This document shows positions 40,172 through 58,956 of a DNA stretch of 64,000 nucleotides, one piece after another (position 1 is the stretch's first letter; each line of letters opens with the position of its first letter). This DNA is from Rosistilla oblonga. Its GTDB lineage: Bacteria; Planctomycetota; Planctomycetia; Pirellulales; Pirellulaceae. The position numbers and the translations under genes were made by a program. The stretch lies in the NCBI RefSeq assembly GCF_007751715.1, contig NZ_CP036292.1:5277339-5341338 (forward strand). The letters are read 5' to 3'. The notes under the pieces were generated by a model. That model was given only the letters and a program-made list of their open reading frames with translations. It did no database searches and was not told where the DNA came from.

Positions 40172-40897
40172 GTGGCAGAACAAGTTTGGCATCTGAAGTC
40201 GTGCGAGCTATTTGCCAATCTGGCCACCGACCAGATCCGTCGGCTGGAAATGCACAGCCGTGTTCGTTCGTTCACCGCACGCAGTCTGGTCTATCTGCCG
40301 TATCAAGCCGCCGACAGCGTCTTCCTGCTGACTCGCGGAATGGTCAAAGTCTGCCACTCGACGCCCGATGGGAAACAGTCGACGCTGGCATTTATCGAAC
40401 CCGGTGAGCTCTTTGGCGAACTGGCGTTGTTCGATCCCTCCCAACGCGATGAATTTGTCGAAGTCGTCACCGCAGCGACCGTTGTGATGATTCCCGCCGA
40501 CCAACTGATACAATTAATGTCCGAAGCCAACGCGTTTGCCGTTGGGATCACCAAGTTGGTTGGGCTCCGACGACAGCGGATCCAGCGACGATTGCGGAAC
40601 CTGTTGTTCCAGTCCAATCGCGATCGCTTAACGCATCTGCTGTTGGAACTGGCCGAACAGTTTGGCGTCCCGGCGGAGCAGGGCGTGCGATTGCGGATCA
40701 AACTGTCACACCAAGAGCTAGCCAATTTGATCGGCAGCACGCGCGAATCGGTTACGATCGTACTAGGGCAATTAAAAGCGGAGGGCTTGATCGAATCGGG
40801 ACGACGCCAGATCGTTCTGCTGCGCCCACAACAGATGGCCGAAGGTGTCGGTCAATCCTACCGTCAAACACCGCCACAAGGATTACCAACTCGATGA
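40172..40897 (+). CDS. Crp/Fnr-family transcriptional regulator
   Basis: The start is GTG at 40172. The 241-residue protein has an N-terminal cyclic-nucleotide-binding-like barrel (about 10-130, with EPGELFGELALFD, the phosphate-cassette region) and a C-terminal Crp-type winged helix (about 155-230: LSHQELANLIGSTRESVTIV). The four cysteines of an Fnr iron-sulfur cluster are absent, so oxygen sensing through a cluster is unlikely. A downstream gene overlaps its stop codon by 4 bp, so they form an operon. Confidence 0.9.
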   Translation: MAEQVWHLKSCELFANLATDQIRRLEMHSRVRSFTARSLVYLPYQAADSVFLLTRGMVKVCHSTPDGKQSTLAFIEPGELFGELALFDPSQRDEFVEVVTAATVVMIPADQLIQLMSEANAFAVGITKLVGLRRQRIQRRLRNLLFQSNRDRLTHLLLELAEQFGVPAEQGVRLRIKLSHQELANLIGSTRESVTIVLGQLKAEGLIESGRRQIVLLRPQQMAEGVGQSYRQTPPQGLPTR

Positions 40898-43816: not shown

Positions 43817-45259
43817 CTAAATCAGGTCGCGAATGACGTGGCCGTGGACGTCGGTCAGGCGGCGGTCGACGCCGTCGTGGCGGACCGTTAGCCGTTTGTG
43901 ATCGATCCCCAATTGGTGCAGGATCGTGGCGTGAATGTCGTAGACCTGTGTCGGATGCATCCGGTCCAGCGGCTTGTAGCCCCATTGATCCGATTCGCCG
44001 TAGCTGACGCCGCCGCGGATCCCGCCGCCACACATCCAGTTGGTGAAGACGTAGGGATTGTGGTCGCGTCCCTTGCTCCCTTGCGTGCTTGGCATCCGGC
44101 CAAATTCCGTGGTCCAAAGCACGATTGTGTCTTCTAGCATGCCGGTTCGTTTGAGGTCTTTCAGCAGCGCCGCCGTCCCGACCGCCATCCCGCGAGCCAG
44201 CGGACCGTGATCTCGCTCGATATCTTCATGGGAGTCCCAGTTGCGTCGAGGGAATCCGTTGTCGTTCCCCGACCAGATCTGCACGAAACGTACGCCCCGT
44301 TCCAACAATCGCCGGGCGATCAGGCACTTGCGACCAAAATACTCCGCCTCTTCCGCCGGATTGATCGCATCGGGATACGTCGCCCCAATCCGATCCAATC
44401 CGTACATCTTCATCGTCTCTGCCGTCTCGCCTGAGATGTCCAACGCTTCAGGAGCGCTCAACTGCATCGCAGCCGCCAATTCATAAGAACGTATTCGAGC
44501 TTCCAGTCGCGAATCGCCGGCGTGTTGCTGTAGATGGCGACGGTTCATGCGATCGAGTACCGCCAACCCGTCGCGGTCTCCTGCTGCGGTCACAAAATCA
44601 GCTTGAGCGGTCAGGTCATCGATCGGATTTTCGCGTTGCGGAAAGATCGTGGTCCCTTGAGCACTGGCGGGCAGGAATGCGGAGCCCCAGTTCTTCGGTC
44701 CGTTACTGGCAAATCCGCGGTGGTCGGGAAGAACGACAAAAGTCGGCAGGTTCTCGTTGATCGCCCCCAAGCCATAGCTGACCCAAGCTCCCATTCCTGG
44801 GAACCCGGGGCGTTGGAAACCTGTGGCCTGCAGATACGTCGCCTGTGAATGGACTCCCGTTTTGCCAACCATGTTGTGGACGAAGGCGATGTCATCGACG
44901 CATTCTCCAAGCGGCGCAACAACTTCGCTCAACTGCTTTCCCGATTTGCCATAACGGGCAAACTTGAAAGGGGATTTCATCCACGGCCCCAAGCCGTTTT
45001 GAAACGCTTCGACCGGTTCGCCGAAGTCCGATTCCTGACCGTGGAATTTTTCCAGCAGTGGTTTGTGATCAAACAGATCGATGTGACTGGCGGCACCGGC
45101 CATGAACAACTGCACCACGCGTTTGGCTTTGAGTGGATGGTGCAGCACTTCGACCGCGCCGCCGCTGGCCGATTGCGCATCGCGGTGCAGCATTGCCGCC
45201 ATCGCCAACGCACCAAAATTTGTGCCTGCTTGGCGGACGAATTCTCTTCGGTTTTGCAT
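43817..45259 (-). CDS. DUF1501 protein (operon A), exported
   Basis: A 480-residue member of the planctomycete DUF1501 family, distantly related to sulfatase/alkaline phosphatase-like folds. The start at 45259 gives a Tat-like signal peptide (NRREFVRQAG). An in-frame ATG 30 bp upstream is less likely. Features typical of the family are the VQLFMAGAASHIDLFDHKP block, GKQLSEVVAPLG, and the WTTEFGRMPS-type segment near residue 390, followed by GRDHNP. It begins 7 bp after the stop of the DUF1553 gene, so the two are translated together. Enzymatic activity has not been established for the family. Confidence 0.85.
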   Translation of the reverse strand: MQNRREFVRQAGTNFGALAMAAMLHRDAQSASGGAVEVLHHPLKAKRVVQLFMAGAASHIDLFDHKPLLEKFHGQESDFGEPVEAFQNGLGPWMKSPFKFARYGKSGKQLSEVVAPLGECVDDIAFVHNMVGKTGVHSQATYLQATGFQRPGFPGMGAWVSYGLGAINENLPTFVVLPDHRGFASNGPKNWGSAFLPASAQGTTIFPQRENPIDDLTAQADFVTAAGDRDGLAVLDRMNRRHLQQHAGDSRLEARIRSYELAAAMQLSAPEALDISGETAETMKMYGLDRIGATYPDAINPAEEAEYFGRKCLIARRLLERGVRFVQIWSGNDNGFPRRNWDSHEDIERDHGPLARGMAVGTAALLKDLKRTGMLEDTIVLWTTEFGRMPSTQGSKGRDHNPYVFTNWMCGGGIRGGVSYGESDQWGYKPLDRMHPTQVYDIHATILHQLGIDHKRLTVRHDGVDRRLTDVHGHVIRDLI

Positions 45260-45266
45260 TTTCACT

Positions 45267-48263
45267 TCAGTCCACAAACACGAATTCACTTAGGTTAAAC
45301 AAAAACCGACACAAGTTTTCCAAGCCGTAAGCATTGGCGTAGGCGATCAGATCGTTCCGTTCCTCCACAGTCGCAGGCCGCTGGACCAGCAACTGGAGCG
45401 CCCGGTCGACCTGTTCTGGCAGCCCATCCCGTTCGTTTTGAAGCCGCCCCACAAATGCTTCCGCCATCACGAGATTGAACTTGTTATTCATCAAGGACAA
45501 CGCTTGCAACGAGGTCAGCGTTTCGTTCCGCCGTGGAGTGCTCTGCGATGAATCGGCACAATCGAGCGTCGTCAGGAAGGGATTTGGCTGCGATCGAGCG
45601 ATGAAACGGTAGATGCTGCGGCGATGCGATCGCTTGTCGGCCGGATCGAATTTGTGATATTGAAAGTGAGGCGAATGAGCTGTCTTTTCCAATTCGAACA
45701 GATAGTACCCGGGACCGCCCATCGTCGGATCCAGCGTGCCGCTGACCGCTAGGATCGAATCCCGCAGCTCTTCGGCCGACAGACGCCGCCGTTCGGAACG
45801 CCATCGATATTGGTTGCTGCCATCGATCGCCGCGTTTGCCGCGTTATCTGCCGAGGACTGTTTGTAGACATTGCTGTGGACGATCATTCGATGCAGCGAT
45901 TTCATCGATTGCCCGCCGTCGCGAAACTCGACGGCTAACCAATCGAGCAATTCGGGATGCGTCGGTTCGGCTCCCATCCGACCGAAGTCGTTTGGCGTGG
46001 CAACAATTCCTTGGCCGAAGTGGTACTGCCAAACGCGATTGACGATCGACCGCCAGACCAAAGGGTGTTCGCGGTCGGTCAACCATGCGGCCAATTGAGC
46101 TCGTCGCTCCGATTCGTTTAACGTCGCGTCGAACTGCCACTGCGCATCACCGCTCAGCGGGATCACGCCTGGCACGGCGGGATCGCCCGGCAGCGAGACC
46201 TCTCCGCGATGCAGCACAAACACCTCGCGCGGCTTGCCGCCGGTCGGCTTAAAATTTCCTTGCCGGGTAAAGTTGGTCGCCGCTGCGTAAACGGTTTGCT
46301 GCGGTGGCAAGGCAGCGATCGCTGCCTCGGTCTCGGCGATCTTCCGTTTCGCTTCATCGCGACGCTGCGCCATATCGGGTGTGGTCACATTTGCGAGGAT
46401 CGCATCTCGCTGCTCGGTTGCTTCGGCGATCTGCCGCTTCGTGTCGGGCTCTCCAATTTGCGGCCACTTATCATCGATCAGATTCTGGCGACGCCAGCGA
46501 GGTGCTGCTTCGATGGAATCGAGCGAATGGACGGTTGCCCCGAGCGCCACGTTTTGATCCGCCGCGAAGACTTGCAATTCAGCCAATGCAAAAATGAAGT
46601 CATCCTTCCGCTCCGCCAATCGTGTTGCGGTCACGCGAACGCGACGGACCAGATGATCGTCCAAGGCGATTTCGACGGGCATCAAGCCTGGATTGGCAAA
46701 GTCCTCCATCGTCGCATCGCGAACCGTCGTCCAGTTGCCCGCGTCGTCAGCGACAGCCACTTTGAATCGCATCGGGAATCCAAAGCCGGCGCCGATGTTG
46801 TTGTAGCTGTCTTTGCACGCATGCAAAACGATGCGAGATGCCGACACCTCCTCCTTCAACTCAACCTCGACCCACTTTTCAGTATCTTGGGCAGCGACGA
46901 TCGCACTGTGGTATCCATACTCGGGAAACTCGACAGGTTTTAATTCTTTGTTCAGCTTCGCCAACAACGCCGTGAGCTCGGCCAGTCGTTTTCCGCCAGC
47001 GGTGGCGATCTGGTCGTCGATCGCTTTCAGGATGGCGCTGCCGTCTTCCAACCGATCGTTCAATTCGCTCCGCTTTTCGGCAACCTGGGGATCGAGGTCG
47101 AACTTTCGATCGGCTCGATCGACTGCCGCGAAGATCGCTTGCAAGCCGTAATACTGCCGTTGCGTGATCGGATCAAATTTGTGGTTGTGGCATCGCGCGC
47201 ACTGTACCGTCACACTGCAGAATGTATTTAGTGCGCCGGAAACCATGTCGTCGCGATCGAGATTACGAGCGACTTTGCCATCCAGCTTCGCTTCAGAAAC
47301 CTCGACGTGACCGATGAAGTCCCAGGGACCGGCGGCGATAAAACCTAAACCGAGTGTGCCGTCAGCCGTTCCGGGAAACAACACGTCTCCCGCGATCTGC
47401 TCCTGAACAAAGCGGGCGTACGGTTTGTCTTCATTGAACGATCGAATCACATAGTCGCGGTAGGGCCATGCGTTGGGACGCAATTTGTCTTTGTCGTAGC
47501 CGTTCGAATCGGCATACTTGGCGACGTCCAACCAGTGCCGCGCCCATCGCTCGCCGTAATGCTTCGATTCCAGCAAACGATCGACAAGTTTTTCGTAAGC
47601 CTTGGGATCGGGATCGGCGACAAAATCAGCGACCTCTGCTGGCGTTGGCGGCAGCCCGATCAGATCGTACGTCAGACGGCGGATCAGCGTCCTTCGATCG
47701 GCTGGCGGCGAATAGGTCAGCCCTTTCTGGTTCAACTTTTCCAAAACAAATCGGTCGATGGGATCCTTCGCCCACGGATCGTTCAGCTCGGGAACCGGCG
47801 GTCGCGACAGCGGCTGGAACGACCACCAATCGAAATCATCGACCAACGCTTCCTGCACAACAAACCCTTCGGGCCACCGGGCTCCGGCGTCGATCCAGCT
47901 TGCGATCGTTGCGATCTCCGCGGCCGATAGCGGGTCGGCATCCTTGGGCATCGCAGCTTTGCCGTCGACCGGAGTGATCAACTCGATCAAATGGCTCGCC
48001 GCCGAATCGCCCGGTTCGATGTATCCGTCGGCAAAAAAGGCTGCGGAGTCTTCAATCGAAAAGCCGCCTTCGGGCGAACCGCCCGCATGGCAGGAGAAAC
48101 AGCGTTGGGCAAGCAGCGGCGCCACGTGAGCCTCGAACTGAGAATCGTCGGCCAATAGTTCGGCGACGCCAAGCGAAAGAGAGATCGCGCCCCAAAGAGC
48201 CAACCGAATCGCAAATCGTTCTGCTGCTGCCAACAACAATCTCTCAACCCTCGTTCGAGTCAC
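45267..48263 (-). CDS. PSCyt1-DUF1549-DUF1553 protein with inserted F5/8C-like domain (operon A)
   Basis: Three planctomycete domains in order: PSCyt1 near residues 40-110 with heme site CFSCH at 55-59, DUF1549 at about 145-350 (PADRRTLIRRLTYDLIGLPPTP), and DUF1553 at about 700-985, ending SEFVFVD. Between the last two, about 440-590, is an extra domain with F5/8C (discoidin)-like beta segments (EKWVEVELKEEVSASRIVL, RFKVAVADDAGNWTTVRD), probably carbohydrate-binding. The start is GTG at 48263; the frame stays open for 189 bp upstream into the divergent sigma-factor gene. A hydrophobic segment after the start suggests export. Redox chemistry on polysaccharide is a hypothesis. Confidence 0.85.
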   Translation of the reverse strand: MTRTRVERLLLAAAERFAIRLALWGAISLSLGVAELLADDSQFEAHVAPLLAQRCFSCHAGGSPEGGFSIEDSAAFFADGYIEPGDSAASHLIELITPVDGKAAMPKDADPLSAAEIATIASWIDAGARWPEGFVVQEALVDDFDWWSFQPLSRPPVPELNDPWAKDPIDRFVLEKLNQKGLTYSPPADRRTLIRRLTYDLIGLPPTPAEVADFVADPDPKAYEKLVDRLLESKHYGERWARHWLDVAKYADSNGYDKDKLRPNAWPYRDYVIRSFNEDKPYARFVQEQIAGDVLFPGTADGTLGLGFIAAGPWDFIGHVEVSEAKLDGKVARNLDRDDMVSGALNTFCSVTVQCARCHNHKFDPITQRQYYGLQAIFAAVDRADRKFDLDPQVAEKRSELNDRLEDGSAILKAIDDQIATAGGKRLAELTALLAKLNKELKPVEFPEYGYHSAIVAAQDTEKWVEVELKEEVSASRIVLHACKDSYNNIGAGFGFPMRFKVAVADDAGNWTTVRDATMEDFANPGLMPVEIALDDHLVRRVRVTATRLAERKDDFIFALAELQVFAADQNVALGATVHSLDSIEAAPRWRRQNLIDDKWPQIGEPDTKRQIAEATEQRDAILANVTTPDMAQRRDEAKRKIAETEAAIAALPPQQTVYAAATNFTRQGNFKPTGGKPREVFVLHRGEVSLPGDPAVPGVIPLSGDAQWQFDATLNESERRAQLAAWLTDREHPLVWRSIVNRVWQYHFGQGIVATPNDFGRMGAEPTHPELLDWLAVEFRDGGQSMKSLHRMIVHSNVYKQSSADNAANAAIDGSNQYRWRSERRRLSAEELRDSILAVSGTLDPTMGGPGYYLFELEKTAHSPHFQYHKFDPADKRSHRRSIYRFIARSQPNPFLTTLDCADSSQSTPRRNETLTSLQALSLMNNKFNLVMAEAFVGRLQNERDGLPEQVDRALQLLVQRPATVEERNDLIAYANAYGLENLCRFLFNLSEFVFVD

Positions 48264-48307
48264 AAATGCAAGTCTACTGTTATAGATCGAGTGACCCGGC
48301 GGATGCG

Positions 48308-48357
48308 GATTTGGTACCCGAACTTCGAAATTTTTGTTTTGCGGGAGGTACCAAATC
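48308..48357. promoter_or_regulatory. Perfect inverted repeat between divergent genes, possible operator
   Basis: GATTTGGTACC at 48308-48318 and GGTACCAAATC at 48347-48357 are exact inverse copies, 28 bp apart, in the 173-bp gap between the DUF1553 gene and the sigma-factor gene. The spacer is A/T-rich (48321-48340). The position fits a shared operator controlling both operons. Confidence 0.5.
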
Positions 48358-48436
48358 GCCACGCCGCGCGCCATTCTTTGATACAGGCCACGTGCCCGGA
48401 CATTAATTCCAACTGCTGCAACAGAGATCCTGCGGG

Positions 48437-48973
48437 ATGGACGACAAACCAAGCGATCCCGACGACTACGAACTCTTTCTACGCTTGTTTGCGCGAGACC
48501 AATTGCGGGTTCTCGCTTATATACGGTCGTTGATCTATCAACCCTGCGCCGTCGACGATGTGTATCAGGAGACGTGTTTAGAGTTGTGGCGCAGCTTTTC
48601 CACGTTCCGCCGCGATCAAGATTTCGCCGCTTGGGCGTTGGGAGTGACTCGGCATCAAGTGCTCAAGCATTGGCGGACCCGCGACCGCGACCGGCACGTC
48701 TTCAGCGAAGCGTTGATCGATGAACTCTCGGCGACGGCACTAAAGCTTGGCCCGGAGATCAACGTCCGCCAGGAAGCGATCGACCAATGCGTGCAGTTGC
48801 TGAGCGAACGGCAGCGGGAATTGGTGCAACTGTTTTACGGCGAGAACCATTCGGCGGCGACGATCGCCCAACGATGGCAGCGGTCGGTGCACGCGGTCTA
48901 CAAATCGCTGAAGGTGATGCGTCGCTCGCTAGCCGATTGTGTCGAATCGAAACTGCAGAACGAACCAGTCTAA
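48437..48973 (+). CDS. ECF-type RNA polymerase sigma factor (Rhodopirellula/Verrucomicrobium type)
   Basis: A 178-residue sigma-70 family protein. Region 2 (about 15-85) contains the RDQLRVLAYIRSLI and DVYQETCLELWRSF helices that contact RNA polymerase and melt the -10, and region 4 (about 115-165) has the AATIAQRWQRSVHAVYKSLKVM helix-turn-helix. There is no zinc-binding anti-sigma in this operon; instead the next gene encodes a FecR-type protein with an anti-sigma-like N-terminus. It is divergent from the DUF1553-DUF1501 operon A. Confidence 0.93.
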   Translation: MDDKPSDPDDYELFLRLFARDQLRVLAYIRSLIYQPCAVDDVYQETCLELWRSFSTFRRDQDFAAWALGVTRHQVLKHWRTRDRDRHVFSEALIDELSATALKLGPEINVRQEAIDQCVQLLSERQRELVQLFYGENHSAATIAQRWQRSVHAVYKSLKVMRRSLADCVESKLQNEPV

Positions 48974-49003
48974 AATCGCTTGCTCCAGAGAAACTACAAG
49001 CCC

Positions 49004-50641
49004 ATGCAACCTGATGACGAAGCACCCGATCGGCAAGCTCTTTTGGACCTGGCCGACTTGCAGATCCAAGGGACGGCGACTGTCGACCAGACGGCTCAAT
49101 TGGAAGCGATGCTGACCAACGATCCCGAAGCACAGCGGGAGTATCTGCGGTACACGTTGGTTCACGGTCAATTGGGGCTGACGGTCCCGGCGATGCCCGA
49201 CATCTCGGCCTGTCTGCCACCGGCAACGCAAAGTGGTAAAGCAGTTTCCCTCAAGTCGACCGACGATCGTCGATCGACTTGGCCCGCGCTGGTTGCCTTT
49301 GCTGTAGCGGCTTCGGTGCTTGTTATCGTTGGAATCCGGTTGGCTCGCGAGCCGATCGAACCACGACAACCGATCGCGGCGACAGCGCCAAAGCTGCAGA
49401 CGCAGCCGATGGCTTTCAGTTACGACCACCGCAAACCGCCACTGGGAATGGTTGGCACGATTGGAAATCGACGGGACGCCACCGGGCCGCTGACCTTGAC
49501 CGTCGAGCAAGGAGCAACCGACTTTCAAACCCAAAGTGGTGCGAGCTTACGTGTTCAGGGGCCGGCATTATTTGGGATCAACGCAAGGGACAGCGGCGTG
49601 CTTTTCCGAGGTTTGGTGCATGCCAAGCTGAGTGACCCGGCGTCCCGATTTTCGGTGACGACAGCCAACTTGAGGATTCTCGACTTGGGAACCGAATTCG
49701 AAGTCGACGTGATCGATGATCAACATATCGCCGTCCATGTGATCGATGGTCAAGTCGACGTGCAGAGACGTATCCGATCACCGCTGTTCTATTGGAACTT
49801 CGATTCCCCCACGACGACGACGGCGGACCTCGCGAAGGCAGGTTCTCGCTTGTCGTATGGCAGTCGAGCGACGCGAACCGGCGGGATTGTGGGTGATGGC
49901 GCGGTCCAGTTCGACAACTCTCCCGACGCCTTTATCGATATCGACGACGGCTTGGGAAGCACTGCCGGAACGGGAGCGATGGCCTGCAGCAGCGGGATTT
50001 CGATCGAAGCAATGTTCATCTCCGCGTGGAGCGGAAACTTCAAAGACTACGACGAGATCTTTCGCAAAGAGGATGGCGAATATCGCTTTCTGTTGAGCTT
50101 TCAAAACGACGCCAACGTCGGCAACTATGCGATGCCGCCAGTTCCCGACGGGCCATGCCTCTCGTTTGGCCTACACCTGGAAGAATTTGGCTACAGCGAA
50201 CTCGACATGCCGCTGGATGGCCGCGAGGGGCGGCCGTCTAAAGCCGATTTGACCGATGGCAAACCACACCATGTCGTGGCGACCTACGATAGCTTCAGTG
50301 GGAAGAAGAGCCTCTATATCGATGGCCGATTATGTTTTGAGCACCAGTTTCCCGTTGGCGTTCTGGCGATCAGCGGCGGGTCGGCTCAAGCTTGCATCGG
50401 CAACAACGGCTGGGTCAAGAGCGAAGCCTTCCAAGGCACGCTCGATGAAGTCGCCTTCTACGACTTTGCCTTGACCGCCGATGAAATCGCTGCTCACCAT
50501 AGTCGCGCCGCTCGCGGCGAATCCTATTTCGCTCCGAGCACGACTCCACAATCGGACCAGCGATGGCGATCGATCACTCCCGTCAGCGCTGGCACCCGAC
50601 AGGTGTTGAACGTTCAAACAGGGCTGCCGACCGATCAATGA
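49004..50641 (+). CDS. FecR-like membrane protein with LamG-type domain
   Basis: The ATG at 49004, 30 bp after the sigma-factor stop, gives 545 residues. The cytoplasmic N-terminus (about 1-85) has the helical anti-sigma-like pattern (LLDLADLQIQGTATVDQTAQ-like), followed by a single transmembrane helix (about 93-113) and a periplasmic FecR domain (about 130-245, with VTTANLRILDLGTEFEV). A LamG-like sandwich follows at about 255-490 (YWNFDSP, KKSLYIDGRLCFEH, GTLDEVAFYDFALTADEI). FecR proteins receive an outer-membrane signal and hold or release a sigma factor. A LamG domain in the sensor position would suggest direct sugar or matrix sensing. Confidence 0.85.
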   Translation: MQPDDEAPDRQALLDLADLQIQGTATVDQTAQLEAMLTNDPEAQREYLRYTLVHGQLGLTVPAMPDISACLPPATQSGKAVSLKSTDDRRSTWPALVAFAVAASVLVIVGIRLAREPIEPRQPIAATAPKLQTQPMAFSYDHRKPPLGMVGTIGNRRDATGPLTLTVEQGATDFQTQSGASLRVQGPALFGINARDSGVLFRGLVHAKLSDPASRFSVTTANLRILDLGTEFEVDVIDDQHIAVHVIDGQVDVQRRIRSPLFYWNFDSPTTTTADLAKAGSRLSYGSRATRTGGIVGDGAVQFDNSPDAFIDIDDGLGSTAGTGAMACSSGISIEAMFISAWSGNFKDYDEIFRKEDGEYRFLLSFQNDANVGNYAMPPVPDGPCLSFGLHLEEFGYSELDMPLDGREGRPSKADLTDGKPHHVVATYDSFSGKKSLYIDGRLCFEHQFPVGVLAISGGSAQACIGNNGWVKSEAFQGTLDEVAFYDFALTADEIAAHHSRAARGESYFAPSTTPQSDQRWRSITPVSAGTRQVLNVQTGLPTDQ

Positions 50642-50684
50642 TCGCTCGACGTACTGGTTTCCGAAGCCATCCAACACCGATGCA

Positions 50685-51899
50685 TCAAAGGCTGGTGATG
50701 CGATGTTGACCCTGGCCGCTTTGGAACAGTTCGGGTTGCCAAGCGGCTCCGATTCCAGCTCGCTCGGGAACGGTGATCCTTCCCTTTTCGATCGTGACTT
50801 CCGTATCGATCAACTTCGGATACAGCATTCGCACATGGGCTCGCACGCTTTCCTGCCAAGCCACGTTGTTCGATGTCGCGGCAACTTGTACGCCCGACAA
50901 CAACGTCAGCGGCCCGGTGCAATCGTGCATCACGACCGGCACGTTGTAGAACTGGGCCAGGCGAGTGATGTTGCGCGTTTGCGAGATCCCACCAACCCAA
51001 GTCGGATCGATCATCACATAATCCGCGGCACGCTTTTCCAGCGTCAATCGGAAATCATCGGGGCCGCTGAACATCTCGCTCACGGCCAACGGGATTCCGG
51101 CTTTGTCGCGGAAGTCGGCTAAGGTGTCGATCGAATCGACACGCAACAGATCCTCGGCCCACAGCAGGTCGAATTCACGCAGGTGTTGGGCGAGTCGAAG
51201 CGCCATCGGCAGCTGGAAGAAACCATGCCCATCGAGAATCAGCTCGATCTTGTTTCCCAACGCTTCGCGAATCTTGCGGAACGGCTCGACAGCCTTCTCC
51301 ACATCCATCAGCGAAACGTGCAGCGGACCGTTGGTTTTGTGAGCAGCGAAGTCGGTCGACCAGGTCTTCAGCGCCGTGTAACCTTCGCTGATCAACTCCT
51401 CCGCCAATTGAACCGGTTCATGAACGATCGACCAATAATCGTTCAGTGGCCCCTGGTTCCCCATCGGTCCATGGCCGGGCCAAATATGGCCGGAACTATC
51501 CTCTGTTTTGCCACCATACGAAGGACCGCCACAGCTGTTGTAAGTCGGGATCGAATCCTGGACACGGCCGCCCAACAGTTGCCAGACCGGCATTTTGGTG
51601 ACTTGCCCAAGGATGTCCCAGAGGGCGAGATCGATCGCCGAGATGGCTCGCAGTTCGGCACCGCGCGATCCAAAGTTAGTCGTCCGTTCGTACAGAAACC
51701 GCCAGTGCCGTTCGATATCCAACGGGTTCTCGCCCAGCAGATGATGGTGCATCCAATCGTGCAACATGCTGGCGACCGATTCGGGAGCGTAATAGGTCTC
51801 GCCGCAACCGACGATCCCATCGCTGGTATGGATTCGCAACAACAGCAAGCCCGGCATGATCTGGTCGGGAATTGCGGTTTCGATTTTTGTTATCTGCAT
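50685..51899 (-). CDS. Mandelate racemase/muconate lactonizing enzyme family protein (enolase superfamily)
   Basis: A 404-residue (beta/alpha)8 enzyme acting on a carboxylate by proton abstraction. The N-terminal capping domain has the NFGSRGAELRAISAIDLALWD segment. In the barrel, the metal ligands are Asp in LILDGHG, Glu in LLWAEDLL and Glu in VSEMFSG, and an active-site His lies in VMHDCTGPL. The ATG at 51899 is preferred; an in-frame start at 51965 would abut the DUF1501 stop. It follows the DUF1553-DUF1501 operon B on the same strand, so a sugar acid, possibly from polysaccharide, is a reasonable substrate but is not shown. Confidence 0.88.
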   Translation of the reverse strand: MQITKIETAIPDQIMPGLLLLRIHTSDGIVGCGETYYAPESVASMLHDWMHHHLLGENPLDIERHWRFLYERTTNFGSRGAELRAISAIDLALWDILGQVTKMPVWQLLGGRVQDSIPTYNSCGGPSYGGKTEDSSGHIWPGHGPMGNQGPLNDYWSIVHEPVQLAEELISEGYTALKTWSTDFAAHKTNGPLHVSLMDVEKAVEPFRKIREALGNKIELILDGHGFFQLPMALRLAQHLREFDLLWAEDLLRVDSIDTLADFRDKAGIPLAVSEMFSGPDDFRLTLEKRAADYVMIDPTWVGGISQTRNITRLAQFYNVPVVMHDCTGPLTLLSGVQVAATSNNVAWQESVRAHVRMLYPKLIDTEVTIEKGRITVPERAGIGAAWQPELFQSGQGQHRITSL

Positions 51900-51967
51900 G
51901 TCGTTTCCATCGATTTGGATCGCGTCGTTGAATTGGATATTGAGAGCGCCAGCGGCGATCCCCAAGA

Positions 51968-53365
51968 CTATGCGATGATGTTATGAACCACTTCACCATG
52001 CACATCGGTCAACCGGAAGTCTCGCCCGGAATAGTGATAGGTTAGCTTCTGATGGTCAATGCCCATCAGATGCATAATGGTTGCGTGCAGATCATGCACA
52101 TGCACCTTATCTTGGACTGCACGGAAACCGAAATCATCGGTGGCTCCATGTATCGTCCCACCCTTGATTCCACCTCCGGCCATCCACATCGAAAATCCAT
52201 ACGGATTGTGATCGCGTCCGCTGCCACCCTCGACAGTCGGCGTGCGGCCAAATTCGCCACCCCATACGACCAGCGTTTCGTCTAACAAGTCGCGTTGCTT
52301 GAGATCGGTCAGCAGTTGTGCGATCGGTCCATCGATATCTTTGCACAGTTTGCCGTTGAGTTTCTGGTGGTTGGAATGCGTATCCCAAGGCTGACGGTTG
52401 CCATAATAAACCTGCACCATCCGCACACCATGTTCGCTGAGCCGTCGGGCGAGCAGGCACGATTCGGCAAATTCACTGCTTCCATAGGCATCCCGCGTCG
52501 CCTGAGTTTCCCGCGAGATATCGAAGGCTTCCATCGCTTCGAACTGCATCCGATAGGCCAGCTCCATCGAGGAGATCCGCGTCTCCAGATCGACCGCATC
52601 GGTTCGCTGTTCCATGTGTTGGCGATTGATCGCAGCCACCAAGTCCAATTGTTCCTTCTGTAACTTCGGCGACAGTTCGGTGTTCCGCAGATGAGGAATC
52701 ATCGCTTCGGGCGACGTCTTTTTTGTATGGATGTAGGTGCCCTGAAACTCACCGGGAAGAAACGCATTTCCCCACAGCTTGGGACCGACGACGGGCAAGC
52801 CAGGACAAAGCGCAAGGTACCCAGGCAAGTCTTGGTTTTCGCTTCCCAATCCATACGTCAACCACGATCCGACGCTTGGCCGCGTCGGCGTCATCGCCCC
52901 CAGATTCATCAGACAAAGGGCGGGAGCGTGGTTTGGATTATCGGTGTACATCGACCGGATAATTGCCATCTCATCGGCATGTTTGGCCAACCGAGGAAAG
53001 TACTCGGGGAACGGGATCCCCGACTCACCCGCCGGCGTGAACTTGACGGGCGACGCCGACAGTCCCGATGTCGGTCGCTCTGTCCGGATATCGACAGCTG
53101 CCGGGCGCTGTCCTTCGTATTTGTGTAGATCCGGTTTGGGATCGAAGGTGTCCAACTGCGATGGTCCACCGCTCATGAACAAAAAGATCACGCGTTTAGC
53201 TTTAGCAGGAAAGTGCGGCAGCCCAAGCTTCTCCGCATTGCTGCTGGCACTCGCATCTTGGGACAACAAATCGGTTAGTCCCAACATTCCAAACCCGCCG
53301 CCGGCGGAGCGTAAAATGGAGCGTCGTGAGAGCAACGAAGTTGTTGGATCGAACGGGGAATTCAT
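51968..53365 (-). CDS. DUF1501 protein (operon B), exported
   Basis: A 465-residue DUF1501 protein, a paralogue of the one in operon A. The N-terminus is a twin-arginine-type signal (LLSRRSILRSAGG). Shared family blocks are VIFLFMSGGPSQLDTFDPKP, VVWGGEFGRTP and GRDHNPYGFSMWMAGGG. It lies 57 bp downstream of the DUF1553 gene and 69 bp upstream of the racemase-family gene. As with operon A, the fixed pairing of DUF1501 with DUF1553 suggests that the two proteins act together outside the cytoplasm. Confidence 0.88.
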   Translation of the reverse strand: MNSPFDPTTSLLSRRSILRSAGGGFGMLGLTDLLSQDASASSNAEKLGLPHFPAKAKRVIFLFMSGGPSQLDTFDPKPDLHKYEGQRPAAVDIRTERPTSGLSASPVKFTPAGESGIPFPEYFPRLAKHADEMAIIRSMYTDNPNHAPALCLMNLGAMTPTRPSVGSWLTYGLGSENQDLPGYLALCPGLPVVGPKLWGNAFLPGEFQGTYIHTKKTSPEAMIPHLRNTELSPKLQKEQLDLVAAINRQHMEQRTDAVDLETRISSMELAYRMQFEAMEAFDISRETQATRDAYGSSEFAESCLLARRLSEHGVRMVQVYYGNRQPWDTHSNHQKLNGKLCKDIDGPIAQLLTDLKQRDLLDETLVVWGGEFGRTPTVEGGSGRDHNPYGFSMWMAGGGIKGGTIHGATDDFGFRAVQDKVHVHDLHATIMHLMGIDHQKLTYHYSGRDFRLTDVHGEVVHNIIA

Positions 53366-53422
53366 AATATGCTCAACTTGGCGTTCAAAAATCGGAACTC
53401 GACAATCGGGTCAGGGCCTCGA

Positions 53423-56400
53423 TTAGTCCACGTACAGCAATTCGTTACTACACAACAACGCATGGCAATAATAGATCCAGCGATTCGGAACCGCATAAGC
53501 GTTTTTCGTCGCTGCTTCATAGGTTGCATCATGCATTCCGGTCGCAACATCGCGAATCACTTGCGGCAGTCGCTTTGATTCGTACAGCGGCCAATAAGCG
53601 GCGGGCTGGCCATCGAGGATGGCATGCGAATAATCCGCAAACCTGACGTCTTCGTTTTCAAACTCTGCCGCTTGAAAATGGTGCCCGATCTCCGCTCCCG
53701 AAAGCACGCGGTTGTAGACAGCAACGCTGGCGATCTGGCCTTGGAAATTTGCAAAGTTATCGGACCGACCTGCGATGAACATCTGCCCCACCGCAGCATC
53801 GAACACGGGACTAGCGTTTCCGACGAGTTCGGGTTCGGCGTTCCCATTCAAATAGACACGCACGTTGGCTCCCTCGCGAACCATCACAACATGATGCCAC
53901 TGGTGCGGTGCCAGGACGCTCCGACCCAGGATCGAAACTCGAGCGCCGTTGCCATTAAAGAACAGCAACCGACCGGGGCTGTTGGGCGTGTTCGAGCCTC
54001 CGATTCCCAAATGGTCCCCGTCGACATACGGCGAATCGGCATTGCCACGCGAGAAAAAATAGCCTGTCACGGGGCGTTTATCGTTCGGCAATTCGTTTTT
54101 GATCCACATCTCCACCGAATAGGTCTCACCCAACTGCGGCATCTTCGCCGAAATCCGACGGCCGGCGAAGCGAGGTGGATGATGTAACTGTGGCGTGGAG
54201 TGGTCGGTGCCAGCGGCAAGATAAGCTTTCCCCAGTCGCAATTCCTCGGCTGTTGGATCGCGAGCAAACAGCAAACGATGAACTTCACGAACCCGCGTTT
54301 CGGGATCTTCCGAATCGATCCGCTGCGCAAGCCGAACCGCTTGAGCTTTGGCAAACTCGGAATTCATCACAAACAACTGTTGCAAGGCAGTCGTTGTTTC
54401 GCCGCGTCGTTCGGCGTGGATCGTCGGGTCGGGGAAATCAAAAACCTGCAGATACTGGCTGGGGCTTTGGCGAGAAATCTTGGCGTAGATCGCACGCCGA
54501 AGAAACTTGGCGCTATCGATCTCAGCGGACGGACCGCCCAGCTTGAGGTCGTACGAATCGCCAGCGAACAACAGCGTATCATGGAACGCTTCGGCATCGA
54601 TCCGGAGACGATTGAACCGACTCAGCAATCGATTCTCGGGATCGACCTTATCGGCTTCCGCTATCGAGCTGACGCTGGAGGCCTGTTGGTAAGTCGCCGA
54701 AAGAACGATCTCTCGATGCAGCCACTTCAGCGACCAGCCCGCGTCCATAAAGCGGACAGCCAGATCGTCCAGCAGCTCGGGGTGACTTGGCAGCGAGCCC
54801 ATCGATCCAAAGTTGCTCGGCGAATCGACGATCCCTTCTCCGAAGTGCCACAGCCAAACGCGGTTCACAATCACGCGAGCAGCCAGCGGATTATCGCGCG
54901 ACACGATCGCATCGGCCAGTTCCAAACGTCCACTCCCTTGTTGGAACGCTTGCGAAGCGTCGGACGAAAGGACTTCCAAGAATCCTCGCGGCGCGGGATC
55001 CCCGGGCGTTGCAACATTGCCGCGGATGAATACCGGTAAGTCGCGTGGCTTCTCGGGATAGAAGACGATCTTCTGATGCGATTCGCTTAACGGTTCGATT
55101 CGCACCTGTTCCTCGGTCACGGCATCGGCGACAGGAACTTCGAAGTTGGGCGTCGTCGATTTAATCCGATCGATCGTCAATCGCTTTTGCGTGATTTGCT
55201 CGCGGAGCTTTTTAGCTTCCGCATCGAGAGTAGCTCGCTCGGACTGAGCAGCTTTCTTGATCTTCGCCTCGAGCGGCTTCAACTCCTTTTGAATCTTTTT
55301 GGTTTCCGCTTCGAGCGCAGCAACTTGGTCGCGGGCAGGTTGAGAAGCAGCGATCGCTTCATCGGAAATCAGAGGCCGAGTCGTTTGCCGAATCGAAGCA
55401 AAGACGCCAGCCAAAGCGTAGTAGTCTTTTGCCGAGATCGGATCGTATTTGTGGTCGTGACAGCGGGCACACGCAACCGTCAATCCCAGCAGACCGCGGC
55501 TGATTACATCGACGCGATCTTCCCATTCGTCGGCGTATTGTGATTCCAACGTCAGCTGGGACAGCTTCAACTCTTTGTGATACTGAGGCGACATTCCCAG
55601 CAGCCCCAGGGCTGGCAGATCTTCGCGACCGGTCTGCTCCAAGAAATCGGTCGCCAATTGACGCCGAATGAATTCGTCGTAGGGGACGTCGTCGTTGATC
55701 GCCGCGACCACCCAATCCCGATAGCGGTAAGCGTTTGGATAGGGACCGTTGTGTTCGCCCATGTTCACATTGTCTTCGGCGTAACGCACGACATCTAACC
55801 AATGTCGGCCCCAGCGTTCGCCGTAGTGCTGCGATGCCAAAAGATCATCGACCAGATTTTTGTACGCTTGCGGATCGGGATCGGCAACGAAGCGTTCAGT
55901 CTGTTCGTACGTCGGTGGGATGCCAGTCAGATCGAGACTAACGCGGCGAATCAGCGTGCGACGATCCGCTGGCGGAGCGGGTGTGAGCCCGGCCGCTTCG
56001 ATCTTCGCCAAGATAAAGTGATCCAGCGTTTGCTGTGGCCAATCCGAATCCCTAATTTCGGGGAGCGCTGCTCGTTGGGGCACGACAAAAGACCAAAACT
56101 CGCGGCGCGAATCGATATCAAATTCTTTCCGCAGCTGCCCCATCTCTTCGGTGCGTGGGTCGGGTGCGCCCATCGCGACCCATTTCTCGAAATCAGCGAT
56201 CACCGAATCGGCGAGCTTTCCCTTAGGAGGCATCTGATAAGTCGAGTCATCGTATCGCAGCGTCTCGATCAACAGACTCTCATCCGGTTTCCCCGGCACG
56301 ATCGCTTCGCCGGAGTCACCGCCCAGCAGCAAGCCGGCTTTGGAGTCGACTTGCAGCCCCGCTTGCAGCGGATTGGAGTCGGCCGCGTGGCAGGAATAGC

Positions 56401-56560
56401 AGTGCTCGACAAGCACGGGACGGATCTTCTGTTCGAAGAATCGAATCCCCGCCTCCTCGTTCTCCTCGGCTGAAAGTTCTTGGATCGAAGCCGAACCAGC
56501 CAACAGAACAGCGGCCCAGACGGTCGACCAGAAGAAACAACAGGTGCTTGCTTTTCTCAT
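53423..56560 (-). CDS. PSCyt1-DUF1549-DUF1553 protein with inserted LamG-like domain (operon B)
   Basis: A 1045-residue exported protein. A signal peptide (about 1-30) is followed by PSCyt1 with heme site CYSCH at 54-58 and a second conserved patch ending SVIADFEKWVAMGAPD. DUF1549 covers about 160-370 (PADRRTLIRRVSLDLTGIPPT), then a Lys/Glu-rich coiled-coil stretch near 400-450, and DUF1553 from about 500. Unlike the operon A protein, the extra domain is C-terminal: a LamG-like sandwich at about 800-965 (HQWHHVVMVREGANVRVYLNG) set between the DUF1553 body and its usual last segment, which ends CSNELLYVD. It thus splits the domain's terminus. Confidence 0.86.
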   Translation of the reverse strand: MRKASTCCFFWSTVWAAVLLAGSASIQELSAEENEEAGIRFFEQKIRPVLVEHCYSCHAADSNPLQAGLQVDSKAGLLLGGDSGEAIVPGKPDESLLIETLRYDDSTYQMPPKGKLADSVIADFEKWVAMGAPDPRTEEMGQLRKEFDIDSRREFWSFVVPQRAALPEIRDSDWPQQTLDHFILAKIEAAGLTPAPPADRRTLIRRVSLDLTGIPPTYEQTERFVADPDPQAYKNLVDDLLASQHYGERWGRHWLDVVRYAEDNVNMGEHNGPYPNAYRYRDWVVAAINDDVPYDEFIRRQLATDFLEQTGREDLPALGLLGMSPQYHKELKLSQLTLESQYADEWEDRVDVISRGLLGLTVACARCHDHKYDPISAKDYYALAGVFASIRQTTRPLISDEAIAASQPARDQVAALEAETKKIQKELKPLEAKIKKAAQSERATLDAEAKKLREQITQKRLTIDRIKSTTPNFEVPVADAVTEEQVRIEPLSESHQKIVFYPEKPRDLPVFIRGNVATPGDPAPRGFLEVLSSDASQAFQQGSGRLELADAIVSRDNPLAARVIVNRVWLWHFGEGIVDSPSNFGSMGSLPSHPELLDDLAVRFMDAGWSLKWLHREIVLSATYQQASSVSSIAEADKVDPENRLLSRFNRLRIDAEAFHDTLLFAGDSYDLKLGGPSAEIDSAKFLRRAIYAKISRQSPSQYLQVFDFPDPTIHAERRGETTTALQQLFVMNSEFAKAQAVRLAQRIDSEDPETRVREVHRLLFARDPTAEELRLGKAYLAAGTDHSTPQLHHPPRFAGRRISAKMPQLGETYSVEMWIKNELPNDKRPVTGYFFSRGNADSPYVDGDHLGIGGSNTPNSPGRLLFFNGNGARVSILGRSVLAPHQWHHVVMVREGANVRVYLNGNAEPELVGNASPVFDAAVGQMFIAGRSDNFANFQGQIASVAVYNRVLSGAEIGHHFQAAEFENEDVRFADYSHAILDGQPAAYWPLYESKRLPQVIRDVATGMHDATYEAATKNAYAVPNRWIYYCHALLCSNELLYVD

Positions 56561-57237: not shown

Positions 57238-58209
57238 TCACCACTCGCCAATGACTTGCGAGTCGGCTTTATCGCCGAGGTTCTGATAGATCTGTTGGTC
57301 GATCGTCTCCGCTGCAAACCGCACCGAACCATCAGCCAACGTGACCTGGATACCACCGGGATGATAGCTGCGTGAGAAGTTGAACTGCTCGCCTCGCGTC
57401 GACGTCGTGCCCAAACAAGGCGCTTCCAGGACCGTCGTCGATTTGCAGCTGAGCGGTCGGTCGGGAAGCGAGGTGTTCGGCGGTTCCGCAGTCGTAAACC
57501 CAGCGGCTCCCCACGTTGCACCACCCCAGTACTGTCCTAAGTCGCCGTGTGCGCCGACGTTGTCCATCGGCCGTGCGATCCCTTCGCCCACCATGATCGT
57601 ATTCGTCGTGCCGTCGAGGATGTCGCGGAACTTGGTCTTCGACGCGTTGTAGAACATTCCCTTGCCGTTGGTTGTGATCGTAATGCCTAGCGTCTCCGAA
57701 CCGCTCATGCAGACACCGTAGGTTCCTTGGAAACCGTTGGCTTGATTGGCGGCACCGCCACCGTATCCAGGATTTGTTGGACAGACAAATGCGGGGACAA
57801 CCGTTTCGATCAGCAATTTGAGATTCGCTTGATTGATAAACTGCGAATGATCCGCCTCGTAGGAATCGTAGAGCGCACGTTGTTCGACCATTGGCAGCAA
57901 GCGATGAAACCAAGTGTCACGGGCATGAGTACTTCCGGCGGGAACCCCCGTTGGGCCTGGTGGATTGTCAAACGTCCGATAGGCATACGGAAAACGCTGA
58001 TGCGTATCGTGATAGTTGTGCATCGCCAATCCGATTTGTTTCAGATTGTTCGAGCAACTCATTCGACGCGCCGCTTCGCGAGCTGCTTGGACTGCGGGCA
58101 AAAGCAAGCCGACCAAAATTCCAATGATCGCGATCACGACTAACAACTCAACAAGCGTAAACCCGGCACGCAAGCGTTTCGAACGAACCGAACCTTTACA
58201 ACAAAACAT
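57238..58209 (-). CDS. DUF1559 pilin-like protein (second copy)
   Basis: The ATG at 58209 gives 323 residues and a short basic leader ending at Gly-Phe-Thr-Leu-Val-Glu, then the pilin helix, as in the copy at 28.4 kb, and [17 protein letters not shown]. The middle differs strongly from the first copy, with a Cys-containing segment (VCPTNPG) and a [16 protein letters not shown] block; the C-terminal [14 protein letters not shown] is conserved. The two are therefore paralogues, not a recent duplication. An upstream in-frame ATG at 58242 is less fitting. Likely a surface or pseudopilus subunit. Confidence 0.9.
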
Positions 58210-58956
58210 AACGACACCTATACGAGGCAAGAGGAAAGACAAAAACGAACGATAGAGGCAACGGCCAATTCGACGGTTGCTTCAAAGTCTCAACGGACCA
58301 TGCCAAGGAGAGAGATCGGCCCCCGCAAAGGGCGATACAACAAACTTCATCAAAGACTTCATTGCGGAAGGCGACATTGCGGCTCTAAATGCCCAGTCTG
58401 GCAGTCAATATCTCACCAGACCGTTAGACGGCAGAGCACGTACAACTTGGGGTGGGTAGGGGATTTGGCAGGGACCACGTACAGTATTGCAAGACATAAG
58501 ACATGTCAACAAACATCGCGGGGCACTTTCTGGGAATTATTAAGAATTGACGAAACTCTGACGGTTACGCCGAGATATCCCAAAATGCGAGAACGCCCTC
58601 CCCCCAAACAGATTCACCGTACCGTAGCAGAGGTCATCGAGACGTTCGATCGACGACTAAAACCGAAGCAAATCGTTTACCCGCGGCGGCAACGCCCCGC
58701 GCGTTTGAGGCGAGCGTTTGGGGGGCGCGAACACGTGGCCCGTTGGGCACGCGGTTAAACGACGCAGTAGATACACCTCACGTTGAAACTCTTGACGTGT
58801 TCCGCTGCGGAGGTTGGCGGTAGAGCGCAATGCTTTACGGACGCGGGAACTTGGGGATCTCGCGAGCCGATGAGACGGGAGTTCCGGCTGGTACGGAACA
58901 ACGATCGGCACGATAAGGTTCCGCTCCGAGCGAGCGAACTAAGAAAAAAAAGAAGG
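58210..58956. other. Long intergenic region with inverted repeat
   Basis: About 750 bp without a supported gene. CCCCCCAAAC at 58600-58609 and GTTTGGGGGG at 58716-58725 are exact inverted copies, about 106 bp apart. A 152-codon frame on the plus strand (58300-58758) crosses this repeat but is Arg-rich and unlike a real protein. The region also contains the DUF1559 promoter, which I cannot locate. Confidence 0.4.

Follow-up and report, generated by a model that had tools for sequence, protein, structure and literature searches.

The closest described systems differ in how much of the present arrangement they contain. In FecI-FecR surface signalling an ECF sigma factor acts with a membrane regulator carrying a FecR domain that is encoded directly downstream, and FecI-like sigma genes are described as not autoregulated (available parts of PMC8103513 and PMC3817407). 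For the PSD1/PSCyt2 protein RB10051 of Rhodopirellula baltica, RB10049, an ECF gene, has been proposed as regulator (Studholme et al., as cited in the available part of PMC2754498). Equally, DUF1501 genes of PVC bacteria occur in genomic clusters with signal peptides in several members (Kamneva et al., 2012, as cited in the available part of PMC4452313), while freshwater Verrucomicrobia possess PSCyt genes with PSD, LamG or F5/8C domains, whose functions are given as unknown, and their PSCyt2 and PSCyt3 genes mostly adjoin families of unknown genes (available part of PMC5615132).

The window, the stretch of 64,000 nucleotides of Rosistilla oblonga that was analysed and within which all positions are given, can be set against each of these. 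The FecI-FecR order recurs, with an ECF sigma gene directly followed by the gene of a membrane regulator with a FecR domain. The sigma gene of the window has, however, a predicted promoter of its own, so it would depart from the non-autoregulated pattern; furthermore, its FecR protein ends in a LamG domain and no outer-membrane transducer, such as a TonB-dependent one with an N-terminal signalling domain, was found among the 13 window genes scanned (the seven discussed below and six further ones). As in the available account of RB10049/RB10051, where a sigma gene is proposed to control a PSCyt2-PSD1 gene of nearby locus number, sigma and PSCyt2-PSD1 genes are close to each other, but the window, compared by description, adds an anti-sigma gene, DUF1501 and a divergent, near-unique pair of predicted promoters. 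Clustered DUF1501 genes and signal peptides are shared with the PVC clusters as far as these are covered by PMC4452313. With respect to the Verrucomicrobia, on the other hand, a term search finds mention of neither sigma nor FecR in the available main text of PMC5615132.

Gene content of the locus

The layout that an earlier note had proposed from the sequence alone, seven open frames with their coordinates and domains, was borne out by Pfam: two PSCyt/PSD1(DUF1553)-DUF1501 operons lie on either side of an ECF sigma gene (TIGR02989) and the gene of a FecR-LamG protein, and an MR/MLE enolase gene comes after operon B. On the minus strand, operon A begins with an exported PSCyt1-PSCyt2-(F5/8C)-PSD1 protein (DUF1549/DUF1553; 45267 to about 48263), whose GTG start at 48263 agrees with the one previously proposed, followed by a DUF1501 protein with a Tat-like leader (43817..45289; Pfam E 1e-141); the two frames share 23 bases when translation is taken to begin at the first start codon. 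Operon B, also on the minus strand, encodes a PSCyt1-PSCyt2-PSD1-LamG protein (53423..56560), a neighbour judged to be outside the switch proposed below, a DUF1501 protein (51968..53365; Pfam E 4e-151) and a sugar-acid-dehydratase-like protein of the MR/MLE enolase superfamily (50685..51965; MR_MLE_N and MR_MLE_C), with 2pod_A as its nearest solved chain (E 4e-90). Both PSD1 proteins contain two CxxCH motifs and belong with PSCyt/PSD1 (DUF1549/DUF1553) proteins by a CxxCH-bearing PSCyt2 followed by PSD1, the PSCyt2 CxxCH being invariant in 32/32 aligned stretches. Equally, both DUF1501 proteins match PF07394 over its full length (profile positions 1-390 of 390) and start, as judged by eye, with an RR-type, Tat-like leader.

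Between the operons, on the plus strand, lies the sigma gene (48437..48973), assigned to the TIGR02989 (Rhodopirellula/Verrucomicrobium) subfamily with 148.7 bits against NCBI's curated cut-off of 124.55, and downstream of it the gene of the FecR and Laminin_G_3 (FecR-LamG) anti-sigma protein (48980..50641). The latter combines an N-terminal anti-sigma-type domain (residues 23-65, by a profile built in this analysis), a single membrane helix predicted by eye at about 104-125, a FecR domain barely above the PF04773 threshold (24.2 versus 24 bits) and a C-terminal, lectin-like LamG domain, apparently its most conserved region among three orthologues compared. A FecR or anti-sigma-type gene adjoins the sigma gene at 73 of 80 TIGR02989 loci, hand-picked among the matches listed above the family cut-off, with 98 genomes drawn. 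This selection leaves out all matches of G052 (genus of G036), 12 of the 32 of G042, two of G057, one of G095 and single or few matches of G003, G006, G040, G049, G081, G082 and G094.

Operon A and the promoter-like pair

The PSD1 gene of operon A (PSD1A) is kept at 26 of 31 orthologous sigma-FecR loci, divergently at 23 and co-directionally at three, and is missing from five; the operon A-sigma-FecR block is retained across genera and families. Matches of six genomes (G052, G316, G334, G371, G440, G457) are excluded from the orthologue set, and three of the 32 loci fetched (L153-L155), with a LamG match alone and sigma and FecR absent, were dropped. Locus L073 of G089, with a two-operon layout mirroring the window, was rejected as an orthologue, its proteins being absent from the best matches to those of the window; in that genome the real counterpart is L075.

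PSD1 and DUF1501 genes are very common in this genome of 7.25 Mb, with 57 PSD1 matches (55 genes after merging two split ones) and 60 DUF1501 genes, and a second PSD1-DUF1501 operon close by is therefore unremarkable in itself. Carried further, this abundance might mean that sigma genes often fall near such operons by chance, and the 55 PSD1 genes, which put 8.4% of random places within 5 kb of one, can indeed account for operon B. For operon A such a reading is already disfavoured and its probability is next to negligible, given the conservation of the block and the presence of PSD1 within 5 kb of seven of the eight TIGR02989 sigma genes that score strongly in this genome (E up to 1e-30; binomial P 2e-7), with additional enrichment in G036 (8/18, P 0.0003) and G089 (4/9, P 0.0035), though G078 gives 2/5 with P 0.07. 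The corresponding figure for weaker ECF hits of this genome is 2/33. In five further genomes of the class, a PSD1 gene lies no more than 5 kb from 18/36 strong sigma loci, and outside the class from 0/44, so that the sigma/FecR sensor pair is not specific to PSD1 operons.

The gap between operon A and the sigma gene (48264-48436, 173 bp) contains two back-to-back ECF-type promoter motifs of the form GGTAYYAA-N13-GSGYCA. The predicted promoter toward sigma-fecR (GGTACCAA-N13-GCGCCA, 48347..48373, plus strand) and the one toward operon A (GGTACCAA-N13-GGGTCA, 48292..48318, minus strand) are the only exact matches in the entire 7.25 Mb, one per direction. With 10 of its positions fully and 4 half specified, the motif is expected, by arithmetic, to match exactly about once by chance in a genome of this size, and the weight of the motif evidence is thus its position and conservation. 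An exact motif occurs on at least one strand at 17 of the 31 orthologous loci and as an exact divergent pair at 11, with no exact match at 14. Seven other genomes contain 15 exact matches, 12 of them at the orthologous locus, with a count of one for the reversed-pattern control; of the three matches elsewhere, one precedes a DUF1559 gene by about 180 bases. In one genus, a DUF1559 gene oriented as PSD1A is situated between the gap and PSD1A in four of eight loci (L050, L138, L140, L143), with the exact promoter pair in two of these (L138, L143), and the motif site in G176 may be non-intergenic because a small unlabelled frame overlaps it. A motif-blind k-mer search of 24 out of 25 upstream regions (L150, with its sigma hit absent, was dropped) recovers the motif in 15/24 on the forward strand and in at most three after shuffling, a control that leaves the relatedness of the loci uncorrected. 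By motif and conservation, a predicted promoter of the sigma factor's own class is thus located 5' of the sigma gene, consistent with autoregulation. No motif shared by the upstream regions of paralogous sigma genes was found, the scores being at or barely above those of shuffles, which fits private promoters, but gives them no general support. Upstream regions that are only weakly related, aligned in five groups and with partly unreliable start codons, gave no result, and a scan for consensus sigma-70 promoters and terminators gave background level only.

A second sigma lineage, represented by the 18 best loci among the matches listed, carries a different motif, TAACC-N14-GGTA, in 15/18 loci, and FecR-LamG and PSCyt1 genes follow sigma at all 18. 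The longer form of this motif has one hit each in seven genomes, at the respective sigma locus, and two second-lineage promoters have a 15-base gap. At the level of predicted promoters, this lineage shows a repetition of the private-promoter logic with another motif. It equally bears on whether the inverted repeat ATTTGGTACC...GGTACCAAAT in the window, in which the -35-like boxes mirror each other 28 bases apart, might be an operator or an RNA hairpin instead of paired sigma promoters. This is improbable: 13 bases after each box follows its own -10-like box (GCGCCA or GGGTCA), outside the repeat and recurring separately in orthologous loci, and the second lineage has a single box pair, which is spelled differently.

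What was computed directly is which genes are present, that their neighbourhood is conserved, and that the promoter-like motifs form a near-unique pair. As to sigma-promoter binding, signal direction, ligand and chemistry, we infer a model in which the sigma factor, together with FecR-LamG, probably acts as a private switch that induces itself and, of the two operons, operon A only. With no signal, the cytoplasmic N-terminus of FecR-LamG would tether the sigma factor to the inner membrane, while binding of a ligand, probably a glycan or envelope polymer, to the outer LamG domain would release it to fire both predicted promoters of the gap. The sigma-fecR promoter would provide positive feedback and the opposite promoter the exported di-haem PSCyt-PSD1 protein together with DUF1501, which might jointly oxidise, outside the cytoplasm, most likely sugar polymers or their fragments. 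The LamG ligand, once found, would suggest the class of substrate on which the cytochrome/DUF1501 pair may act, and a predicted two-promoter regulon with a ligand-binding outer domain would give a direct handle on the numerous PSD1 (55) and DUF1501 (60) genes.

Operon B as a neighbour

The earlier note had read the locus as one surface-sensing oxidative system with the sigma factor inducing both flanking operons. In the window the sigma/FecR-LamG pair is indeed flanked by both, and the PSD1 protein of operon B has a LamG domain too. However, none of the 31 orthologous loci (24 of them with sequence extending 5 kb or more past FecR) has operon B beside the module, and the common motif that had been suggested upstream of 48263 and 56560 is present at the former position with no GGTAYYAA-N13-GSGYCA copy upstream of operon B. 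Furthermore, Blastopirellula marina (L223) has operon B in the same PSD1-DUF1501-enolase order, and there neither a sigma nor a FecR gene lies closer than 8 kb to the enolase. On these three grounds sigma control of operon B was rejected, and induction of both operons by one sigma factor is very unlikely. What is retained of the former claims is the half concerning operon A, with conservation of the module beside it, the divergent like motifs and the anti-sigma-PSD1 fusions described below; the first reading is corrected in that the switch would include one operon of two.

Operon B would then be a separate, independently conserved unit that is located alongside the switch by happenstance, a part of the private-switch explanation which, taken as a whole, has a good probability. 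Within three genes of the enolase, raw counts in 80 neighbourhoods, many on short contigs, are 13 for DUF1501, 13 for PSD1 and two for sigma.

Protein chemistry and possible fused sensors

Formylglycine sulfatases have a conserved C-x-P/S-x-R nucleophile motif, and sulfatases have a metal-binding Asp-Asn in the C-terminal half. The mature part of the operon B DUF1501 protein was modelled by AlphaFold2 with a mean pLDDT of 91.6, and the best Foldseek hits of the model are sulfatases (E 1e-7, probability 1.00), with whole-chain TM-scores of only about 0.4 and a large rmsd; the model thus indicates a common core and not full superposition. While the best PDB matches and an aligned profile stretch are in common with sulfatases of the alkaline phosphatase superfamily, DUF1501 differs by the lack of an invariant Cys or Ser and by altered active-site positions. 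Among 33 DUF1501 proteins, the best Cys and the best Ser each reach 76% and two Thr (318, 383) reach 90%, with no conserved nucleophile motif of the formylglycine type, and the sulfatase Asp-Asn position aligns with E325-F326 in 33/33. A fold comparison of the PSD1 core with the PDB gave nothing at E 0.001 or below; by sequence, the 11 PDB matches listed at E up to 1, of which FoxE is the best, fall on the N-terminal haem part. A reported activity of PSD1 or DUF1501 proteins was not found in the literature.

Scanning of the genes after FecR, which covered 15 of 19 loci in G042 (L087, L093, L097 and L101 omitted) and 30 of 46 in the remaining genomes (short, distant or duplicate ones omitted), identified galactose-oxidase-like genes next to sensors of this type at 13 of the 15 G042 loci. 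Together with LamG, F5/8C and the sugar-acid-dehydratase-like enolase, these neighbours point only indirectly to polysaccharide oxidation. The carbohydrate-type domains and these neighbours also suit substrate sensing better than an envelope-stress circuit, in which LamG would recognise a wall or surface polymer of the cell itself and the cytochrome pair would repair or protect the envelope. Such a circuit is rather unlikely, but has in its favour that ECF sigma factors are often involved in stress responses (available part of PMC8103513) and that RB10049 of Rhodopirellula baltica, likened to the window sigma factor by description, is upregulated under heat, cold and salt (available part of PMC2754498).

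The private switch might have a variant in a single polypeptide. The anti-sigma N-terminus with its membrane helix was also found fused onto PSCyt2-PSD1 proteins, with full-length matches to the fused form in at least 65 of 297 genomes, a hand count among the matches listed (query start at or below 9, three candidates per genome) that includes one row, G462, with an internal stop. Five fused proteins were looked at in detail; the anti-sigma N-terminal profile had originally been built with fused sequences included, and a profile rebuilt without them still detects all five (E 1.5e-8 to 2.3e-11). L042 of the own genome (744 residues, adjoining a sigma gene) has a similar layout with no hit to the anti-sigma profile and is uncounted. 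The fusion, which appears new to us, ties sensor and PSD1 together and suggests enzyme-as-sensor signalling. Tentatively, and with somewhat less than an even chance, PSCyt2-PSD1 itself can act as sensor, its haem part being held outside the inner membrane by one membrane helix that leads from a cytoplasmic anti-sigma domain, and its redox state or substrate occupancy freeing the sigma factor, with the LamG-type anti-sigma protein as the split version and one private promoter set per sigma factor. One genome would then hold many insulated circuits in which an enzyme reads its own substrate.

As a separate observation, set aside as evidence, L135 contains a single PSD1-DUF1501 frame of 1497 residues, which may be due to a frameshift or sequencing error and not to fusion, because an internal Tat-like motif is retained.

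Gene content and the operon that accompanies the sigma factor

The host genome is that of a planctomycete in one contig of 7.25 Mb, in which the seven genes described in the earlier note were confirmed by frame check and domain scan as open frames carrying the expected domains. On the minus strand, operon A encodes a PSCyt1-PSCyt2-F5/8C-PSD1 protein (PSD1A, 45267-48263; PSD1 is DUF1553) and a DUF1501 protein (43817-45289), and operon B a PSCyt1-PSCyt2-PSD1-LamG protein (53423-56560), a DUF1501 protein (DUF1501B, 51968-53365) and an MR/MLE enolase (50685-51965), the closest named relative of which, in a search that may omit the window's own record, is found in Blastopirellula marina DSM 3645 (83% identity). 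Between the operons, on the plus strand, stand an ECF sigma factor of subfamily TIGR02989 (48437-48973) and a protein with a short N-terminal domain, one predicted membrane helix, FecR and LamG in this order (48980-50641). A DnaA-like protein (38617-40140) followed by a Crp-like regulator (40172-40897) and, upstream of operon B, a DUF1559 pseudopilin-like protein (57238-58242) are also encoded.

A profile from three FecR-LamG orthologues served to search 149 family genomes and 297 class genomes; 31 orthologous loci, L050 and L075 together with 29 newly fetched ones, were examined. PSD1A is present in 26 of them, 23 times divergent and three times co-directional, and operon B genes occur in none of the 31, 24 of which extend 5 kb or more past FecR. 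Equally, both loci from within the same genus (L125, L126) retain operon A and are without operon B, and the row of PSD1-LamG, DUF1501 and enolase genes in Blastopirellula marina (L223) has neither a sigma nor a FecR gene up to 8 kb from the enolase. Operon B is therefore an independent unit, and the earlier interpretation, a ligand-sensing FecR-LamG protein with a sigma factor inducing both flanking operons, is supported in part, for operon A and not for operon B. The layout of the window is mirrored at one locus (L073, genome G089), where two PSD1-DUF1501 operons surround a sigma/FecR-LamG pair; the proteins are not orthologues. Three further loci (L153, L154, L155) encode double-LamG proteins, about 895 residues long and 43-46% identical to the window's sensor protein, sigma and FecR genes being absent from the fetched stretch.

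Predicted promoters of two sigma lineages

The 173-base gap between operon A and the sigma gene (48264-48436) holds two back-to-back copies of GGTACCAA-N13-(GCGCCA or GGGTCA) with a T-rich stretch between them. Exact matches to the predicted ECF promoter GGTAYYAA-N13-GSGYCA are present at least once in 17 of the 31 orthologous loci, as a divergent pair in 11, and absent in 14. An open search with any 5-mer, gap and 4-mer recovered the same boxes in 15 of 24 upstream regions versus at most three in shuffles (forward; the shuffles ignore relatedness). The whole R. oblonga genome contains exactly two exact matches, both in this gap; matches with a single mismatch show no excess (11, where the reversed pattern with one mismatch allowed gives 22), and upstream of operon B there is no match even at two mismatches. 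The check proposed in the earlier note, a motif shared by the two operons, is positive for operon A and negative for operon B. In seven other genomes, 12 of 15 exact matches are located at the sigma-operon A locus (control, 1). Two of the others lie inside frames (G225) and the third (G176) some 180 bases ahead of a DUF1559 gene, overlapping a small unlabelled frame. This last predicted site is credible, because four of eight loci of one genus have a DUF1559 gene inserted between gap and PSD1A and co-directional with PSD1A (L050 by Pfam; L138, L140 and L143 by N-termini), two of the four with the exact pair, although DUF1559 genes are probably common in these genomes.

For a second sigma lineage with a co-directional operon, the best 18 loci of the listed matches were used, all of which encode FecR-LamG and then a PSCyt1 gene. 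TAACC-N14-GGTA was found upstream of sigma in 15 of the 18 (shuffles at most 3), in two more loci 15 bases separate the same boxes, and L182 lacks both. Since the longer TGTAACC-N14-GGTAA, with 10 occurrences in seven genomes (control, 7), is found once at each sigma locus, and three more times in G440, this lineage possesses its own, different and nearly unique predicted promoter. Among paralogous sigma loci no common motif was found. Insulated sigma factors with one operon each are predicted from sequence for two lineages and would be an extrapolation for the rest.

Association of the proposed sensor switch with PSD1 and other exported proteins

R. oblonga has eight strong TIGR02989 genes, 60 DUF1501 matches and 57 PSD1 matches, merged into 55 genes. 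PSD1 lies within 5 kb of seven of the eight versus 8.4% of random places (P 2e-7), and of two of 33 weaker ECF matches. The one strong sigma-FecR-LamG pair without such a neighbour (L039:8633-10758) has its nearest PSD1 at 13 kb. At five loci of this genome (L036, L037, L038, L040, L041) sigma, FecR with or without LamG, PSD1 and DUF1501 are all co-directional, an order of which the divergent layout in the window is a variant. A set of 80 sigma loci was selected from elsewhere in the phylum. Sigma is adjoined by a gene of FecR or anti-sigma type in 73 of them; of the 36 from the same class, which come from five genomes, 18 have PSD1 no more than 5 kb away, as against none of the 44 from outside the class.

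The gene product behind sigma repeatedly opens with the N-terminal domain seen in the FecR-LamG protein. In five cases (L051:5813-7969, L065:5863-8157, L068:5774-7933, L080:5890-8007 and, in R. oblonga itself and also with PSCyt1, L035:4018-7629) an N-terminal anti-sigma-type domain and a membrane helix, assigned by eye, precede PSCyt2-PSD1, with the PSCyt2 CxxCH kept; a profile built without the five still detects them (E 1.5e-8 to 2.3e-11). The first four loci share the order PSD1, DUF1501, sigma, fused protein, and at least 65 of the 297 class genomes contain full-length matches to their type (start at profile position 9 or earlier, counted by hand), those listed all belonging to one family. 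Judged from this fusion after the sigma gene, a haem protein can apparently take the place of FecR-LamG. Sigma/anti-sigma switches are a familiar kind of system, which limits the novelty of the window's pair; of note are the divergent pair of predicted promoters, nearly unique in the genome, and the fusion of enzyme and anti-sigma domain, neither of which was found described in the literature searched, most subscription papers lying outside its reach. Equally, no paper treating DUF1553 and DUF1501 together was found there. The idea of sigma-PSD1 regulation is not new, as Studholme et al. are reported (PMC2754498) to have proposed that an ECF factor, RB10049, regulates a PSD1 protein, RB10051.

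Outside the class, the 4.4 Mb genome G042 has 33 strong sigma genes of the TIGR02989 subfamily among the matches listed, 20 loci of which were fetched (L085-L104). Sigma-FecR-LamG is often followed there by a very large protein, and a galactose-oxidase-like domain is present in 13 of the 15 gene products scanned behind FecR, a copper-binding domain in five. In loci without PSD1 outside G042, DUF1559 pseudopilin-like proteins make up nine of 30 scanned FecR neighbours, L053:5005-5922 among them; L170:6856-7752 is another such protein after a sigma-FecR pair. With these two sets of neighbours, unrelated exported proteins, some of them probable oxidases, recur behind the sigma/FecR sensor switch.

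Possible functions of the DUF1501 and PSD1 proteins

The DUF1501B model (mean pLDDT 91.6) resembles sulfatases or sulfamidases in all 50 listed PDB matches (best E 1e-7, probability 1.00), all but a few of them so titled; whole-chain TM-scores against PDB sulfatases are low, near 0.4. Against eight sulfatases chosen from the fetched loci by the C-x-P-x-R motif, the DUF1501 profile aligned over 116 columns (probability 87.8, E 3e-6). Glu325-Phe326, kept in 33 of 33 DUF1501 proteins, is aligned onto the metal-binding Asp-Asn of sulfatases, and no Cys or Ser is invariant across the 33. On these grounds, DUF1501 most likely has an alkaline phosphatase/sulfatase-type core and is not a formylglycine sulfatase.

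The model of the PSCyt1-PSCyt2-PSD1 core (mean pLDDT 87.7) has no counterpart among solved folds at E 0.001 or below, and its first 95 residues show likeness to haem domains such as that of FoxE. Two haem motifs and the association of the genes suggest that the PSD1-DUF1501 pair may be an oxidising system. MR/MLE sugar-acid-dehydratase-like genes adjoin PSD1-DUF1501 in nine of 80 loci (L223, L229, L239, L243, L259, L266, L272, L287, L296; planctomycete, verrucomicrobial and other records, by our own reading of the neighbourhood table), which gives a hint to the substrate. At L135:10000-14493, a single frame of 1497 residues runs across PSD1 and DUF1501; since a Tat-like motif persists inside it, a frameshift or the loss of a stop codon seems likelier than a genuine fusion.
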